Below are positions 7,046-18,281 of a stretch of 20,524 bases of DNA, one piece after another (the first letter of the stretch is position 1; each line of letters opens with the position of its first letter). The stretch spans positions 1 through 20,524 of IMG/VR virus record IMGVR_UViG_3300027779_000203. One strand, given 5' to 3'. The notes beneath the pieces are model-generated. The model was not told where the DNA came from. It made no database searches and worked only from the letters and a program-made list of their open reading frames with translations. Made by a program: the position numbers and the translations under genes. This DNA comes from a virus.

Positions 7046-7945
7046 CTACTGTTTAACTGGTTGAAAGTAATCAACCGCTTTCTGTGATTGTGCTAATGCG
7101 TCACCTACTAACGTATAGTCATGCTTTAATGCCTTGATCCAGCTGTTCAAGTATTGGACGTGATTGTCTCTTATTGTTTTTTCAATACCAAACTGTTGAC
7201 CAAATAAAACACTACCCAACTCAGCAACTAACTCTTCGAATGCATATTCATTTAGTAAACCAAACTTTTCTTTATTCTTTTTTATTCTTCCTGTTCTCAA
7301 TTCACTTCCCGTTGAGTGTGTTAACTCATGAAACAAAGTAGAATAATAATGCACCGTTGCATCAGCCTCTTTTGTGTCTTTAAAATTAATCTTAGAAGTC
7401 ATGTTGATATAATCAGAAGTTTGATTATAAAAACAACGTCCTTCTTCTTCATGTCTAAGATCAATCTTAGTTGATTTAACAAACGTATCAATTGCATCAA
7501 CTGAGTACTGTTTACCAGTTTTAAAAACTGGCGGTGTGTAAGTGCCTTCAGTTTGTGCAAAGTTAAAAGATTTAGAATAAAGTAAAATCGCTCCACTTAG
7601 AACTTTTTTATCTTTAACTATTCTTGAATCTTTAAAGAAGGGCTTATAAAAAACAATTGGAATAGGTTTGGCTCCAGTTTTTGGAACGTTGCCTAAACTT
7701 GCCCATTGTTTTTTAGTTGCATAAAGACAATATTTATACTTCTTAAAATAAGTGTCAAATGTTGTTAGCATTGCATTAACACCTTTAAAATATAACTTTG
7801 TCTTTGCATTAGTGGGACGGCTATTTAAATTATTAAATGGTGCGTCCCATCTTTTTTTAGGATTATTAACTTGACCTTGCATAAGTGCAATAACTTGATC
7901 AGCTAATGGTTTATGTACTATCTCTGTTACTTTTGTTTTTTTCAT
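7046..7945 (-). CDS. ArdC-like antirestriction protein (DUF1738 plus zincin metallopeptidase)
   Basis: ArdC-type proteins have an N-terminal single-strand DNA-binding domain and a C-terminal zincin-like metallopeptidase domain. They protect incoming DNA from host restriction. Here the N-terminal half carries NSRPTNAKTKLYFKGVNAML (41-60), matching the RPxN...GxN signature of DUF1738. The C-terminal half has the zinc motif HELTHSTG (206-213) and a downstream acidic helix YAFEELVAELG (234-244) expected to give the third ligand. The 299-residue length is typical. The -10 TATAAT ends 6 nt before the ATG, so the transcript is probably leaderless. A palindrome half-site lies just upstream of the -35. 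The gene forms a single transcription unit facing TerL. The protein is probably made early, but that is inference. Confidence 0.88.
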   Translation of the reverse strand: MKKTKVTEIVHKPLADQVIALMQGQVNNPKKRWDAPFNNLNSRPTNAKTKLYFKGVNAMLTTFDTYFKKYKYCLYATKKQWASLGNVPKTGAKPIPIVFYKPFFKDSRIVKDKKVLSGAILLYSKSFNFAQTEGTYTPPVFKTGKQYSVDAIDTFVKSTKIDLRHEEEGRCFYNQTSDYINMTSKINFKDTKEADATVHYYSTLFHELTHSTGSELRTGRIKKNKEKFGLLNEYAFEELVAELGSVLFGQQFGIEKTIRDNHVQYLNSWIKALKHDYTLVGDALAQSQKAVDYFQPVKQ

Positions 7946-8694: not shown

Positions 8695-8720
8695 GAAGCT
8701 CCAAGCACCAAGCCTCAAGC
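8695..8720. repeat. CAAGC heptad array 1
   Basis: CAAGC occurs at 8702, 8709 and 8716, with GAAGC at 8695, at exact 7-bp spacing. The array lies between the ends of two convergent genes, beside the long palindrome. The same repeat unit appears at 9812 and 10501. Confidence 0.75.
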
Positions 8721-8732
8721 TACCTACTTTCA

Positions 8733-9299
8733 TTACTTACCTTTAGGTTTTGGTAATGCAGGTAGATTATTGTCCCACGAAACACCGCCCAATTTTAATA
8801 GAGATGTTAATTGATCTATTAAATCAGTTGGTACTGACGCTTCCTTGACCATATCCCCAGCTCTTTCCTTAATCGCTTTCAGATAGACAAGGCGTTGTCC
8901 TTGTGGAGTTTTCTCAGCTAGTTGTTTGGCTTGTGCTTCTGCCCACTTCTCTAACTGATCTTGACAGTTTTTGACAGTAATACAATCCCTGTCATCTTTG
9001 TCAAATCTGTAGTCTTTTAATTTAGACCACGCTACATCTTTTCTGGCACTTTGGTCAAAAAATATGTAGGCATTTCTTGATGCTTCTCGTAGTTTAGTTT
9101 CAGCATCTTGAAGTGCGTTTATTACTTTAGTTGCACCAATATTCTTAGCAAAAGATTTAGTTCCTTTGTTTAGAATATTTTGTACAGTCGTCTTAATCCG
9201 AAGTTCTTCCCTCTCGATTTCAGGTTCTAACTTCTTCTCAACCTTTTGCTCAAAATGATCTCTTTGATACAGTTTGAGTTCGTTTTCTTTTTTTGTCAT
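8733..9299 (-). CDS. Hypothetical alpha-helical protein
   Basis: I do not recognise this 188-residue protein. It is rich in Lys, Glu, Gln and Ala and should be mostly helical. A strongly charged N-terminus (1-40) precedes a region with KNIGATKVINALQDAETKLR (52-71) and a long helix around 113-160. The C-terminus is proline-rich (NLPALPKPKGK). There is no membrane segment or signal peptide, and two cysteines lie near 105-111. It has a sigma70 promoter and an AGAGG ribosome site, so unlike several neighbours it has a normal leader. It is divergent from the 38-residue gene at 9482, and the shared 180-bp intergenic region carries three palindromes. Confidence 0.8.
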   Translation of the reverse strand: MTKKENELKLYQRDHFEQKVEKKLEPEIEREELRIKTTVQNILNKGTKSFAKNIGATKVINALQDAETKLREASRNAYIFFDQSARKDVAWSKLKDYRFDKDDRDCITVKNCQDQLEKWAEAQAKQLAEKTPQGQRLVYLKAIKERAGDMVKEASVPTDLIDQLTSLLKLGGVSWDNNLPALPKPKGK

Positions 9300-9328
9300 T
9301 TATTTACCTCTTTATCTTTCTGTCCACT

Positions 9329-9372
9329 ATTATATAGGATATGATTTAAAAGTCAACTGCCAAATTGTCGCA
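9329..9372 (-). promoter_or_regulatory. Promoter of the 8733-9299 gene with abutting palindrome
   Basis: On the minus strand TTGACT (9356-9351), a 16-bp spacer and TATAAT (9334-9329) form a near-consensus promoter. A palindrome half-site TGCGACA with centre ATT and degenerate arm TGGCAGT (9372-9356) meets the -35 directly. The leader of about 20 nt contains AGAGGT before the ATG. Confidence 0.85.
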
Positions 9373-9375
9373 GGG

Positions 9376-9430
9376 TGCGGCATATTGTCGCGCGACACTT
9401 TATCCTCTTGACATTGGACAAATTGTCGCA
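9376..9430. promoter_or_regulatory. Two further palindromes in the divergent promoter region
   Basis: TGCGGCA-TAT-TGTCGCG (9376-9392) and TTGGACA-AAT-TGTCGCA (9414-9430) lie between the divergent promoters. Each has one intact arm and one degenerate arm. A TTGACA at 9408-9413 sits just before the second site, but no -10 is correctly spaced from it. Confidence 0.6.
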
Positions 9431-9439
9431 GCTTCTCTT

Positions 9440-9473
9440 TTGCCATAATGTTGCCATAATTCTCCTATATAAT
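9440..9473 (+). promoter_or_regulatory. Promoter of the 38-codon gene, with 11-bp-spaced direct repeat
   Basis: TATAAT at 9468-9473 lies 8 nt before the ATG at 9482, which implies a leaderless message. The -35 position (9445-9450, ATAATG) is poor. TTGCCATAAT is repeated at 9440-9449 and 9451-9460, one helical turn apart, just upstream of and overlapping the spacer. It may bind a regulator. Confidence 0.65.
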
Positions 9474-9481
9474 AAGGGAAT

Positions 9482-9598
9482 ATGGAAAAACAAAACAAAG
9501 AAGAACTAGAACCATACACACCTGATGAGGAGTATGTTGAGTACCAAAACGACATGCAATCTCAGGTGCAAGAAGATATAGAAGAAGCTTCGGCTTAA
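9482..9598 (+). CDS. Acidic 38-residue peptide upstream of the structured RNA
   Basis: The ATG at 9482 opens 38 codons ending with TAA at 9596-9598. The peptide is strongly acidic (about thirteen Asp/Glu against three Lys) and glutamine-rich, with PYTPDEEYVEYQ in the middle. It has no cysteine, signal or membrane segment. A good -10 box 8 nt upstream and strong codon-like composition support it, though it is short. A C(UUCG)G hairpin (9585-9596) overlaps its last codons, and the folded RNA element begins right behind it. Function unknown. It could be a real small protein or a translated lead-in to a functional RNA. Confidence 0.6.
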   Translation: MEKQNKEELEPYTPDEEYVEYQNDMQSQVQEDIEEASA

Positions 9599-9791
9599 TC
9601 TAAAAGGTCTCAGGCGCTTCGGCGCCTGGGCTTGAGCCGGGATCTTATGGTGGTCAGTTAGTATGGAATAGCGTAATAAATGTGCTTGCACTATAAAAGT
9701 CTATTTAGAAAGCTGAGAAGTCGTAGGATCCCGGGTCAAGTTGCGACTAATGGTAACTCGCGAGAGTGTAATACCCATTAGCGCTTGACCC
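9585..9791 (+). ncRNA. Candidate structured RNA element
   Basis: Several helices follow the 38-codon gene. Two stems are capped by C(UUCG)G loops: AAGC/GCTT (9585-9596) and CAGGCGC/GCGCCTG (9611-9628). A long arm starts with CCGGGATC (9637-9644) pairing GATCCCGG (9727-9734). It continues through six more mostly wobble-containing pairs (9645-9650 with 9721-9726), an internal loop, TCAGTT/AGCTGA (9654-9659 with 9711-9716) and AATAG/CTATT (9667-9671 with 9701-9705). A second arm is GGGTCAAG (9733-9740) with CTTGACCC (9784-9791), then CTAATGG/CCATTAG (9747-9753 with 9775-9781), capped by ACTC-GCGA-GAGT (9756-9767), a GNRA tetraloop. It does not look like tRNA, and I cannot assign a known family. 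The promoter upstream of 9482 could transcribe it. Confidence 0.68.
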
Positions 9792-9811
9792 TAAAAATAA
9801 AAGAAAAGCCC

Positions 9812-9844
9812 CAAGCTTCAAGCTCCAAGCGCCAAGCTTCAAGC
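9812..9844. repeat. CAAGC heptad array 2
   Basis: CAAGC occurs at 9812, 9819, 9826, 9833 and 9840, at exact 7-bp steps. The two variable positions are TT, TC, GC and TT. Adjacent units create GCTTCAAGC, itself a near-palindrome. The array runs straight into a GC hairpin and a TGCGACA palindrome. Confidence 0.85.
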
Positions 9845-9880
9845 CGCCGAAGGCGGCTGCGACACTATGTCACATTGACA
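9843..9880. promoter_or_regulatory. GC hairpin with TGCGACA palindrome and TTGACA
   Basis: GCCGCC-GAA-GGCGGC (9843-9857) is followed at once by TGCGACA-CTA-TGTCACA (9858-9874) and TTGACA (9875-9880). No -10 sits at the right distance from this TTGACA. The hairpin could end the upstream RNA transcript, but no T-run follows. Confidence 0.6.
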
Positions 9881-9893
9881 CAAGATGTAGTGG

Positions 9894-9938
9894 TGCGACA
9901 ATTTGGCCATTGACATCCGGACCATGATCCTATATAAT
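9894..9938 (+). promoter_or_regulatory. Perfect-consensus sigma70 promoter with abutting palindrome
   Basis: TTGACA (9910-9915), a 17-bp spacer and TATAAT (9933-9938) match the consensus exactly. TGCGACA-ATT-TGGCCAT (9894-9910) meets the -35. The expected transcript start near 9945 gives a short leader with AAGGAG before the ATG at 9971. Confidence 0.92.
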
Positions 9939-9970
9939 AGGGGACATGAATAACAAAAAGGAGAAACAAC

Positions 9971-10387
9971 ATGGGTGATAGAGTTAGTATATCATTTAGA
10001 CAAAAGGAAGAAACATACGGCGGACCTACAGAGAAGAAGACACGTTTGGAAGAATCTCCAGCGCTCTTCCATCATTGGGGTGGCACTGAGCTTCCTAAAG
10101 TAGCCTTCGAATGGTTTAAGAAGGTTAGGGAAGACACTGAAGGAAAACGATCAGATCCATTCACGCGCCTAGAGCCGCGCAATCTAATGGTGCAGCTCAT
10201 CGGCACCTTAGCACGAGAGAAGTGGGATCAGTATAGTACAGGAACCGGGAAACACGATACATGGATGACGCATAGCATGTACCTGGGCAAAGATAGCAAT
10301 GATGGAGACAACTCCGACAACGGTCATTACACGATCGATGTGGATGAAAGCAGAATGTACAACGACAAAGGAGAATCAATAGCATAA
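9971..10387 (+). CDS. Conserved small phage protein beginning MGDR
   Basis: This 138-residue protein starts MGDRVSISF and contains SPALFHHWGGTELP (about 29-42). That pattern (MGDR...-F..HWGG..-P) recurs, from memory, in a family of unknown function in marine phages and cyanobacteria. The C-terminal third is rich in Asp, Asn and Gly (KDSNDGDNSDNGHYTIDVDE), possibly metal-binding or an exposed loop. The gene has a perfect-consensus promoter and an AAGGAG site 8 nt before the ATG, so it should be strongly expressed. It is a single-gene unit followed 6 nt later by a long GC hairpin. Function unknown. Confidence 0.85.
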   Translation: MGDRVSISFRQKEETYGGPTEKKTRLEESPALFHHWGGTELPKVAFEWFKKVREDTEGKRSDPFTRLEPRNLMVQLIGTLAREKWDQYSTGTGKHDTWMTHSMYLGKDSNDGDNSDNGHYTIDVDESRMYNDKGESIA

Positions 10388-10448: not shown

Positions 10449-10500
10449 CTCCAGTTTTAAAAATTTTTGGTAATGGTAGTATAGTAGATACAGCAGGCTA

Positions 10501-10556
10501 CAAGCACCAAGCGGAAGAGGCCCCAAGCATCAAGCTCCAAGCTTCAAGCGCCAAGC
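10501..10556. repeat. CAAGC heptad array 3
   Basis: CAAGC occurs at 10501 and 10508. After a 9-bp interruption of the phase it recurs at 10524, 10531, 10538, 10545 and 10552, again in exact 7-bp steps. A single extra copy lies at 10605. The array sits between the ends of two convergent genes and runs into a palindrome. A weak TTAAAA-N17-TATAGT (10457-10485) could transcribe it. Confidence 0.85.
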
Positions 10557-17621: not shown

Positions 17622-17753
17622 TTAAGATCCCTGACCTATTGATTTTTTACGTCTAGGAATTCTTTTTGAAACGTGTTTAGCGTGCCTTCCGGGGCGCTTC
17701 TTTTGAGTTCTTTTATGGTAGTCAGAAACACCAAAGAGAGGTCTATTGGCCAT
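17622..17753 (-). CDS. Small very basic protein (43 residues)
   Basis: Reading the minus strand from the ATG at 17753 gives MANRPLFGVSDYHKRTQKKR, then PGRHAKH and a Lys/Arg-rich end finishing IGQGS. The start PLFGVSDYHK with a basic tail is, from memory, a recurrent small family in uncultured marine phages. It overlaps the zinc-ribbon gene upstream by 11 nt, as usual here, and its stop meets the convergent stop at 17621 with no gap. Such a basic peptide may bind nucleic acid, but no evidence shows this. Confidence 0.78.
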   Translation of the reverse strand: MANRPLFGVSDYHKRTQKKRPGRHAKHVSKRIPRRKKSIGQGS

Positions 17754-17958
17754 TGTCTTTTATATTCTGTTCTAAGAATATTTTATTTTTTGAAAGAGTA
17801 TCCCCAACTGGAATATAAGAAATAACACCGTTTACTTTTTGTTCCATGTCGGTTCCGCAATTAGTGCAGCGAAAGTTATGGGCACAGATTGAAATAAGAA
17901 TGGTATGTCGAGTACATGTGGGGCATACACCAGTTACAATTTCAGCATTAAGCTTCAT
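17743..17958 (-). CDS. Zinc-ribbon protein (CPTC...CTNCG)
   Basis: The 71-residue form starts MKLNAEIVTGVCPTCTRHTI. CPTC (12-15) and CTNC (about 32-35) make a zinc ribbon, followed by GTDMEQKVNGVISYIP, a pattern I recall as common in marine phages. An ATG at 17994 would add 12 residues. The internal ATG is preferred because GGGGA precedes it and the overlap with the previous gene falls from 47 to 11 nt, in line with neighbours. Nucleic-acid or protein binding is likely; the role is unknown. Confidence 0.78.
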   Translation of the reverse strand: MKLNAEIVTGVCPTCTRHTILISICAHNFRCTNCGTDMEQKVNGVISYIPVGDTLSKNKIFLEQNIKDNGQ

Positions 17959-18109
17959 CGCTTTTCCCCAGACCTTTTTTCCAAATTTGTTCATTGCTTT
18001 TCCTACTATATTTAGTTTTATCTTTAAACCGCTGCGGTGTAAAGTGTTTTAAAAGTCGAGCAATAGGGTTTCTAGTTGAGGATAATTTTTTTAATTGAGA
18101 TTGAACCAT
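17948..18109 (-). CDS. Small basic protein (53 residues)
   Basis: The ATG at 18109 opens MVQSQLKKLSSTRNPIARLL, then KHFTPQRFKDKTKYSRKSNE and a Lys-rich end, stopping at 17948. The LKK.S.TRNP.AR segment resembles a small family seen in related phage sequences, from memory. GGAG lies about 10 nt upstream. It fills an otherwise empty gap between two clear genes, overlapping the upstream one by 38 nt, longer than usual here. No function can be given. Confidence 0.7.
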   Translation of the reverse strand: MVQSQLKKLSSTRNPIARLLKHFTPQRFKDKTKYSRKSNEQIWKKGLGKSDEA

Positions 18110-18281
18110 CTATATTTGTCTCCAGTTCAGCGTTAGTTTTGATACATTTGTAAGTTACACTTTCACTGAACTGACGTTCCGCTTCGCGTTTTCCCCGAAG
18201 GCACATTCCCATTGAGTCCTGAATACGGTGTTCTTTAATTTCAAAATTTACAAACATTAATAATGCTACTACTGTTTCCAT
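18072..18281 (-). CDS. Conserved hypothetical protein with N-terminal hydrophobic helix
   Basis: The 69-residue product begins METVVALLMFVNFEIKEHRI, a hydrophobic start that may be a short signal or anchor. CLRGKREAERQ, YKCIKTNAELE and DGSISIKKIIL follow. Two cysteines (about 27 and 46) could pair. The pattern EIKEHRIQDSM..CL.GKR..ER recurs, from memory, in marine phage genomes, with no known role. Its ATG directly follows the TAA of the preceding gene, with GGAA nearby, so it is translationally linked. Confidence 0.8.
   Translation of the reverse strand: METVVALLMFVNFEIKEHRIQDSMGMCLRGKREAERQFSESVTYKCIKTNAELETNIDGSISIKKIILN

Follow-up and report, generated by a model that had tools for sequence, protein, structure and literature searches.

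The window, by which we mean the whole analysed stretch of 20,524 nt (positions 1 to 20,524 of the IMG/VR virus record IMGVR_UViG_3300027779_000203), carries a structured RNA element that starts where a 38-codon ORF ends; terL is encoded on the other strand (Table 1). The divergently oriented gene next to it encodes an all-helical protein (family q188) without matches in Pfam, PHROG, PADLOC, PDB or Foldseek. The product of a nearby minus-strand gene (7046-7945) is recognised by Pfam and PHROG (PHROG 7245) as ArdC-like, an anti-restriction protein that includes a zincin-like metallopeptidase domain. CAAGCNN heptamers are found at three intergenic sites, all on the plus strand (8695-8720, 9805-9844 and 10494-10556; 15 matches versus 1 expected), and possibly represent Rho-loading or protein-binding repeats.

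Table 1. Features of the window around the structured element.
Feature	Coordinates	Strand	Remarks
Divergent 188-aa all-helical protein, family q188	8733-9299	-	usual neighbour of arrays
Sigma-70 promoter of the divergent q188 gene	9329-9356	-	11 of 12 consensus positions
38-codon ORF, with the RNA array as its 3' UTR	9482-9598	+	conserved in L003 and L007
AAGC(UUCG)GCUU hairpin	9585-9596	+	overlaps the end of the 38-codon ORF
5' module, CAGGCGC(UUCG)GCGCCUG hairpin	9611-9628	+	folding z -4.3 (9599-9630)
5' adaptor CTTGAGCC	9631-9638	+	
A module CTTGAGCC-GGGATC-(cargo)-GATCCC-GGGTCAAG, 110 nt	9631-9740	+	folding z -6.0; homologous cargo in L003
Shared adaptor GGGTCAAG	9733-9740	+	complementary to upstream CTTGA-CC and downstream CTTGRCC
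B module GGGTCAAG-(cargo)-CTTGACCC	9733-9791	+	folding z -4.9; palindrome CTCGCGAG at the tip
CAAGCNN 7-mer repeats behind the array	9805-9844	+	
Sigma-70 promoter of the next gene, perfect TTGACA-17-TATAAT	9910-9938	+	

The minimum free energy calculated for positions 9585-9791 is -82.8 kcal/mol, compared to -57.8 ± 4.5 kcal/mol for 200 dinucleotide shuffles, none of which reaches the stability of the native sequence (z = -5.52); the individual arms also are unusually stable when folded singly (Table 1). All helices named in the initial annotation, which had read the element, here that of a marine phage, as a compact and highly structured RNA, are present, including the closing helix of the A arm, CCGGGATC/GATCCCGG (9637-9644/9727-9734), and the B-arm helix GGGTCAAG/CTTGACCC (9733-9740/9784-9791) with its GCGA tip. 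The description is thus borne out, as is the statement that the RNA is not a tRNA, given that ARAGORN finds neither tRNA nor tmRNA. Its placement outside any known family also holds: across the whole window no Rfam 15 family scores at or above its gathering threshold, and when 9300-9980 is searched permissively (E up to 10), matches are at chance level only, the best being a microRNA family far below threshold (E = 0.024). The IMES RNAs, which had been put forward as the first comparison, similarly are structured marine RNAs of unknown function, but a link to them finds no support, neither in the window at gathering scores nor within 9300-9980 at E up to 10. No similar phage DNA was retrieved by blastn. 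The assignment of G9733-G9734 to both arms is correct. This overlap is seen throughout the family, since GGGTCAAG has a complement on its upstream side (CTTGA-CC) as well as on its downstream side (CTTGRCC). As for the switch suggested on this basis, the competing pairings around GGGTCAAG are conserved family-wide, and alternation between them is possible.

That the element is an array had been missed because relatives were needed to see it. Searching with a short exact stretch of the long arm leads to L003, a contig with flanks ~90% identical to those of the window, in which the same A arm is preceded by an extra two-hairpin unit and combined with a different second arm. L003 is the only homologue among the first exact matches; two other candidates, L001 and L002, were rejected as chance matches inside other sequence. 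The class was then searched for with patterns of its boundaries (CTTGAGCC, GATC, GGGTCAAG and CTTGRCC). The pattern GATCNNGGGTCAAGT-N30-60-CTTGANCC is matched by 38 viral contigs, nearly all of which, among those inspected, contain arrays of alternating hairpins; CTTGAGCCNNGATC-N20-50-GATCNNGGGTCAAG is matched by at least 120 contigs and CTTGRCCAAACTTGAGCC by 94. Following the removal of duplicates, at least 159 non-redundant array loci were identified in marine viral contigs, each joining from one to four or more small modules; given that all searches relied on exact patterns, diverged arrays are under-sampled in this set. These modular phage RNAs apparently constitute a class undescribed so far: no description of such arrays was found in the open-access literature (with preprints scarcely covered), and an earlier one elsewhere is possible.

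The repeating unit of the arrays is CTTGAGCC-NNGATC-(A cargo)-GATCNN-GGGTCAAG-(B cargo)-CTTGRCC-AAA, followed by the next CTTGAGCC. A modules are closed by CTTGAGCC-NNGATC...GATCNN-GGGTCAAG and B modules by GGGTCAAG...CTTGRCC. Positions 9631-9791 of the window show this succession of adaptors, and the window modules occur in other phages in other orders. The window element, with two modules, is one instance of such arrays, which are widespread and composed of exchangeable RNA modules.

The closing stems vary in a manner expected of RNA. Among 192 unique A inserts, picked by their outer 8-mers only, positions 3-10 of the A stem are paired in 90-100% of cases, through several types of base pairs, compared to 43-98% with shuffled partners. 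With one insert per cluster, the contrast is largest at positions 7-11 (80-99% versus 40-72%). At positions 5-10, we counted 86 G-U combinations versus 8 A-C, indicating that it is the array strand, in single-stranded form, that is under constraint. The same pairing behaviour and the same G-U/A-C trend are seen in an independent set of 34 inserts collected without the GATC requirement. The B modules are closed by GGTCAAG/CTTGRCC, where R pairs either as G-U (CTTGGCC, 99 cases) or as A-U (CTTGACC, 66 cases). At position 2 of the A stem, a T-T mismatch is the commonest state (131 of 192), and paired versions exist. In the cultured Pelagibacter phage HTVC027P, the A stem is closed by CTGATCCC/GGGATCAG, a compensated change that keeps the T-T mismatch. 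Located two pairs into the A stem of the array units, this mismatch may be bound by a protein or a metal.

Integron attC cassettes likewise combine structured ends that are constant with cargo that varies and is shuffled. By analogy, the arrays might be DNA-level cassettes, hairpin units that a recombinase mobilises in folded single-stranded form (attC-like), or they might constitute a mobile palindromic element, in either case devoid of RNA function; a palindromic repeat of bacteria indeed has the same core, CTTGAGCCGGGATC...GATCCCGGGTCAAG. We consider this explanation highly improbable. The closing stems tolerate G-U but not A-C, the stems within cargo families covary (see below), the two ends in HTVC027P differ in a compensated manner, and the orientation of the arrays is fixed behind ORFs and promoters. 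Furthermore, unlike attC cassettes, the arrays have noncoding cargo of ~30-90 nt that covaries at the RNA level, and some stand behind their own promoter; Pfam scans of ten window proteins revealed no integrase or other recombinase.

The cargo is highly diverse. The 417 distinct cargos form 261 clusters, including 172 singletons and 89 clusters with at least two members, 24 of which occur in both A and B slots. The Chao1 estimator yields ~525 module families, a count that, given the loose clustering thresholds and the pattern-biased sampling, gives an order of magnitude. Modules move from one phage to another and from one slot to another. For instance, the B cargo of the window follows other A modules in four contigs (L123, L235/L237 and L236), in L003 the A module of the window has an additional two-module unit and another B module as neighbours, and the slot of the 5' module in L005, L006 and L007 is occupied by other hairpins ending in GCGCC. 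Modules also can be nested: in one A family, CGACAAGAACAACCA...GGGAGTGCGCACCG is retained, and the middle is filled by several unrelated hairpins. Standard adaptors make the modules interchangeable, so that they are shuffled among phages by recombination.

Cargo cores without their closing stems are not unusually stable when folded singly (median z of -0.34 for 80 modules), and the evidence on the cores is therefore one of covariation rather than of energy. Analysis of 27 families with at least three members using RNAalifold identified 44 compensatory pairs versus 11.1 ± 3.0 in column-shuffled alignments, with a summed consensus energy of -199.8 versus -119.5 ± 9.4; two of the largest families yielded no consensus fold in this analysis. 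The helices proposed for the window, which the initial annotation had made dependent on covariation among homologues and on a folding energy distinct from that of shuffled sequence, do covary, and the energy is unusual (z of -5.5). Modules evolve as RNA, with closing stems that covary and tolerate G-U but not A-C, and that the arrays are modular structured RNAs appears nearly certain to us. Simple stable hairpins were considered as the conserved feature of the cargo and rejected: hairpins with loops of 3-12 nt are not generally enriched, whereas palindromes with zero loop are, and the folding z of cargo taken alone is only about -0.3.

Self-complementary sequences are a prominent component of the cargo. 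Palindromes of 8 bases are found 141 times compared to 54 ± 6 in shuffled cargos, and zero-loop stems 151 times versus 62 in neighbouring DNA, with most other loop sizes unchanged. With one module per cluster, a 6-nt palindrome located in a loop with four or more closing pairs is present in 115 modules, against 65 ± 5. Aligned palindromes of homologous modules with differences at two or four positions have remained palindromic in 34 of 62 and 25 of 41 comparisons, respectively (chance levels of ~7% and ~2%), comparisons within a family being non-independent, whereas an equally strict but meaningless control rule is kept in 2 of 70. In total, 19 families contain palindromes that change in sequence while staying palindromic, and in 14 families there is at least one comparison in which the palindrome is broken. 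Among 63 comparisons in which the central dinucleotide has changed while the two outer pairs have not, 22, from 14 families, show self-complementarity in either version; by our arithmetic, ~5% would be expected if both central bases were free. Pairing between adjacent bases is impossible within one chain, and covariation of the central dinucleotide therefore implies a partner molecule. As a case in point, in one family the stem varies between GGUUG/CAACU, GUCUG/CAGAU and ACACUG/CAGUG, GAGGUAAA is constant, and the hexamer that follows is either CCUAGG or CGCGCG. The palindrome CTCGCGAG of the window B module is identical in all homologues found and was itself part of the search pattern, and hence provides no test of palindrome preservation. 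In principle, selection on double-stranded DNA could preserve palindromes as well.

The same kind of evidence is available for OLE, GOLLD and ROOL, large structured RNAs, some of them phage-borne, that assemble without protein, partly via symmetric kissing loops (PMC12286853). A loop of OLE switches among the palindromes GGCC, GAUC and AGCU, and one of GOLLD between GC and CG, and this reasoning supports the symmetric kissing loops seen in the cryo-EM structures of OLE and GOLLD (PMC12286853, published in 2025). At the level of the class, the arrays display the palindrome-preserving covariation that marks such multimers. However, OLE, GOLLD and ROOL each have a single conserved fold, whereas the arrays are combinatorial chains of exchangeable modules with no fixed overall fold, and no Rfam match pointing to sequence homology was obtained for the window or the other loci scanned. 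In dimerisation loops of the HIV-1 type, a stem presents a loop with a 6-nt palindrome, the sequence of which may change as long as it stays self-complementary. The arrays are not related to these loops and comprise hundreds of different modules rather than one. To our knowledge, no other natural noncoding RNA is put together from an extensive kit of shuffled modules that share standard adaptors. Many modules offer a self-complementary loop through which two copies of the RNA would pair, and the transcript therefore probably dimerises or multimerises. We regard self-association of the array RNA as somewhat favoured over its absence.

The arrays occupy characteristic positions in phage genomes. 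A sense ORF has its stop codon abutting the start of the array in 62 of 154 loci, compared to 7 of 135 at a control position; in L003 and L007, the array is located 32-61 nt downstream of the conserved 38-codon ORF. Downstream of the arrays, CAAGC is present at 3.99 copies per 350 nt versus 0.82 at random places. Free-standing arrays without an ORF account for 22 of 167, and in 21 of these a sigma-70-like promoter directly precedes a constant leader; several contain a further constant scaffold with variable slots (scaffold alignment A3). A phage promoter would accordingly drive a transcript in which the array is either the 3' UTR of a tiny ORF, as in the window, or an RNA gene of its own, the transcript being a chain of small folding modules joined by the two standard adaptors. 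Most of the promoters of free-standing arrays (L038, L043, L064, L235 and others) have an inverted repeat, TTGACAA...TTGTCAA, over the -35 box. This repeat resembles an operator, and the divergent gene may regulate the RNA.

Placement right behind short ORFs and ahead of the next promoter, and, in the window and in L163, between genes of opposite strand, would also befit an ordinary 3'-UTR stabiliser that guards short early mRNAs against 3'-5' exonucleases, or a transcription boundary between convergent units with CAAGCNN as a Rho-loading stretch. Such a role is improbable as the full explanation, considering that no terminator-like GC hairpin with a U run is present within 9280-10000, that the 22 ORF-less arrays follow their own promoter, and that stabilisation requires neither hundreds of conserved module families nor palindromes that are kept.

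Within 1.2 kb of the array, a divergent neighbour from one of two protein families is present in 99 of the 123 loci with enough sequence. These are q188, the helical 188-aa protein of the window, and a family of ~325 aa (fam2; for instance, L235 3000-3962, plus strand). Profile comparison reveals no similarity between the two families, and profile searches, a PDB sequence search and Foldseek comparison of two AlphaFold models returned nothing convincing for them. Both are candidate RNA-binding partners; the phages are related, and the association accordingly may reflect synteny rather than partnership.

The arrays are elements of viruses that infect SAR11, the commonest bacteria in the ocean. 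The TerL of the window is 73% identical to that of HTVC027P, and the ~325-aa neighbour family is 70% identical to gp35 of this phage; the host of the window is assigned through these relatives. Another array-bearing phage is contained in L163, a SAR11 single-cell assembly. Among 297 genomes of the SAR11 order, only one was positive, through the phage contig of L163, which indicates that the arrays belong to phages.

In HTVC027P, the 549-bp gap between gp34 and gp35 (17671-18218 of the record, MN698241) contains, on the minus strand, a promoter of the form TTGACA...TATATA and a free-standing array (fold z of -5.1). The 3' half of this RNA (L238 2499-2619, minus strand) matches the Rfam family Flavobacterium-1 (RF02976) with 90.2 bits, against a threshold of 58.9. 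Flavobacterium-1 thus appears to serve as one array module in at least one phage. The family is absent from the window, and among the 37 other loci scanned it is found in a single one; this match, with 80.6 bits, lies in a marine phage outside the array, adjoining an HNH-like gene (L021 567-690, plus strand). The genes behind the array RNA on the same strand are gp34 and gp33, which in an infection transcriptome form a cluster of their own with high expression at 6-9 h (PMC12753301); the text of that study, the infection data of which are deposited under PRJNA1253180, does not mention noncoding or intergenic RNA.

Taken together, we favour, with a probability of roughly 0.58, a modular and probably self-associating RNA that is expressed during infection. 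We infer that the array RNA is made and stable, that its copies pair in the cell and that a function follows from this. The most likely role of such an RNA would be host takeover or counter-defence during infection, an assignment that is tentative and takes as its basis the genomic position and the early-to-middle expression of the neighbouring genes. It is similarly conceivable, but speculative, that pelagiphages possess RNA-only assemblies for the takeover of SAR11, drawn from several hundred exchangeable self-pairing modules and combined differently in each phage.

The main rival holds that the modules are aptamer-like ligands which titrate a host protein or defence factor, that is, swappable counter-defence RNAs in which the palindromes are secondary or serve dimeric targets. 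Conserved unpaired cores within covarying stems have the appearance of ligands, a large shuffled repertoire is what an arms race would predict, the arrays are missing from all SAR11-order genomes other than the one represented by a phage contig, and the ArdC-like anti-restriction protein is encoded nearby. We nevertheless consider a pure array of ligands or decoys unlikely, as there is no known example of a target, and ligand binding alone does not predict palindromes that change yet stay palindromic. The two explanations are compatible, and both could hold. If, as favoured here, the palindromic loops act in the way that their covariation suggests, the arrays would provide natural RNA self-association motifs in very large number, carried by phages whose hosts are the most abundant bacteria of the ocean. 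This proposal is directly testable given that HTVC027P, which carries a copy, is in culture (host HTCC1062) and the time course of its infection is public (PRJNA1253180).

A host-encoded element was considered and rejected, as the matches in bacterial genomes mostly represent a different, GTCATCCCGGC-flanked palindromic repeat (Sphingomonas and others); true arrays among the bacterial-genome pattern matches are restricted to L163, a phage, and L173. The interspersed palindromic repeat, GTCATCCCGGC-CTTGAGCCGGGATC-(variable)-GATCCCGGGTCAAG-CCCGGGATGAC, is found in L159-L179 except L163 and L173 (Sphingomonas, Deltaproteobacteria and others), and shares with the phage modules the adaptor core and a G-G mismatch, by common origin or by coincidence. 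Finally, L034 (13,440 b) contains the same gene and array twice in opposite orientations, which looks like an assembly artefact due to inverted duplication.
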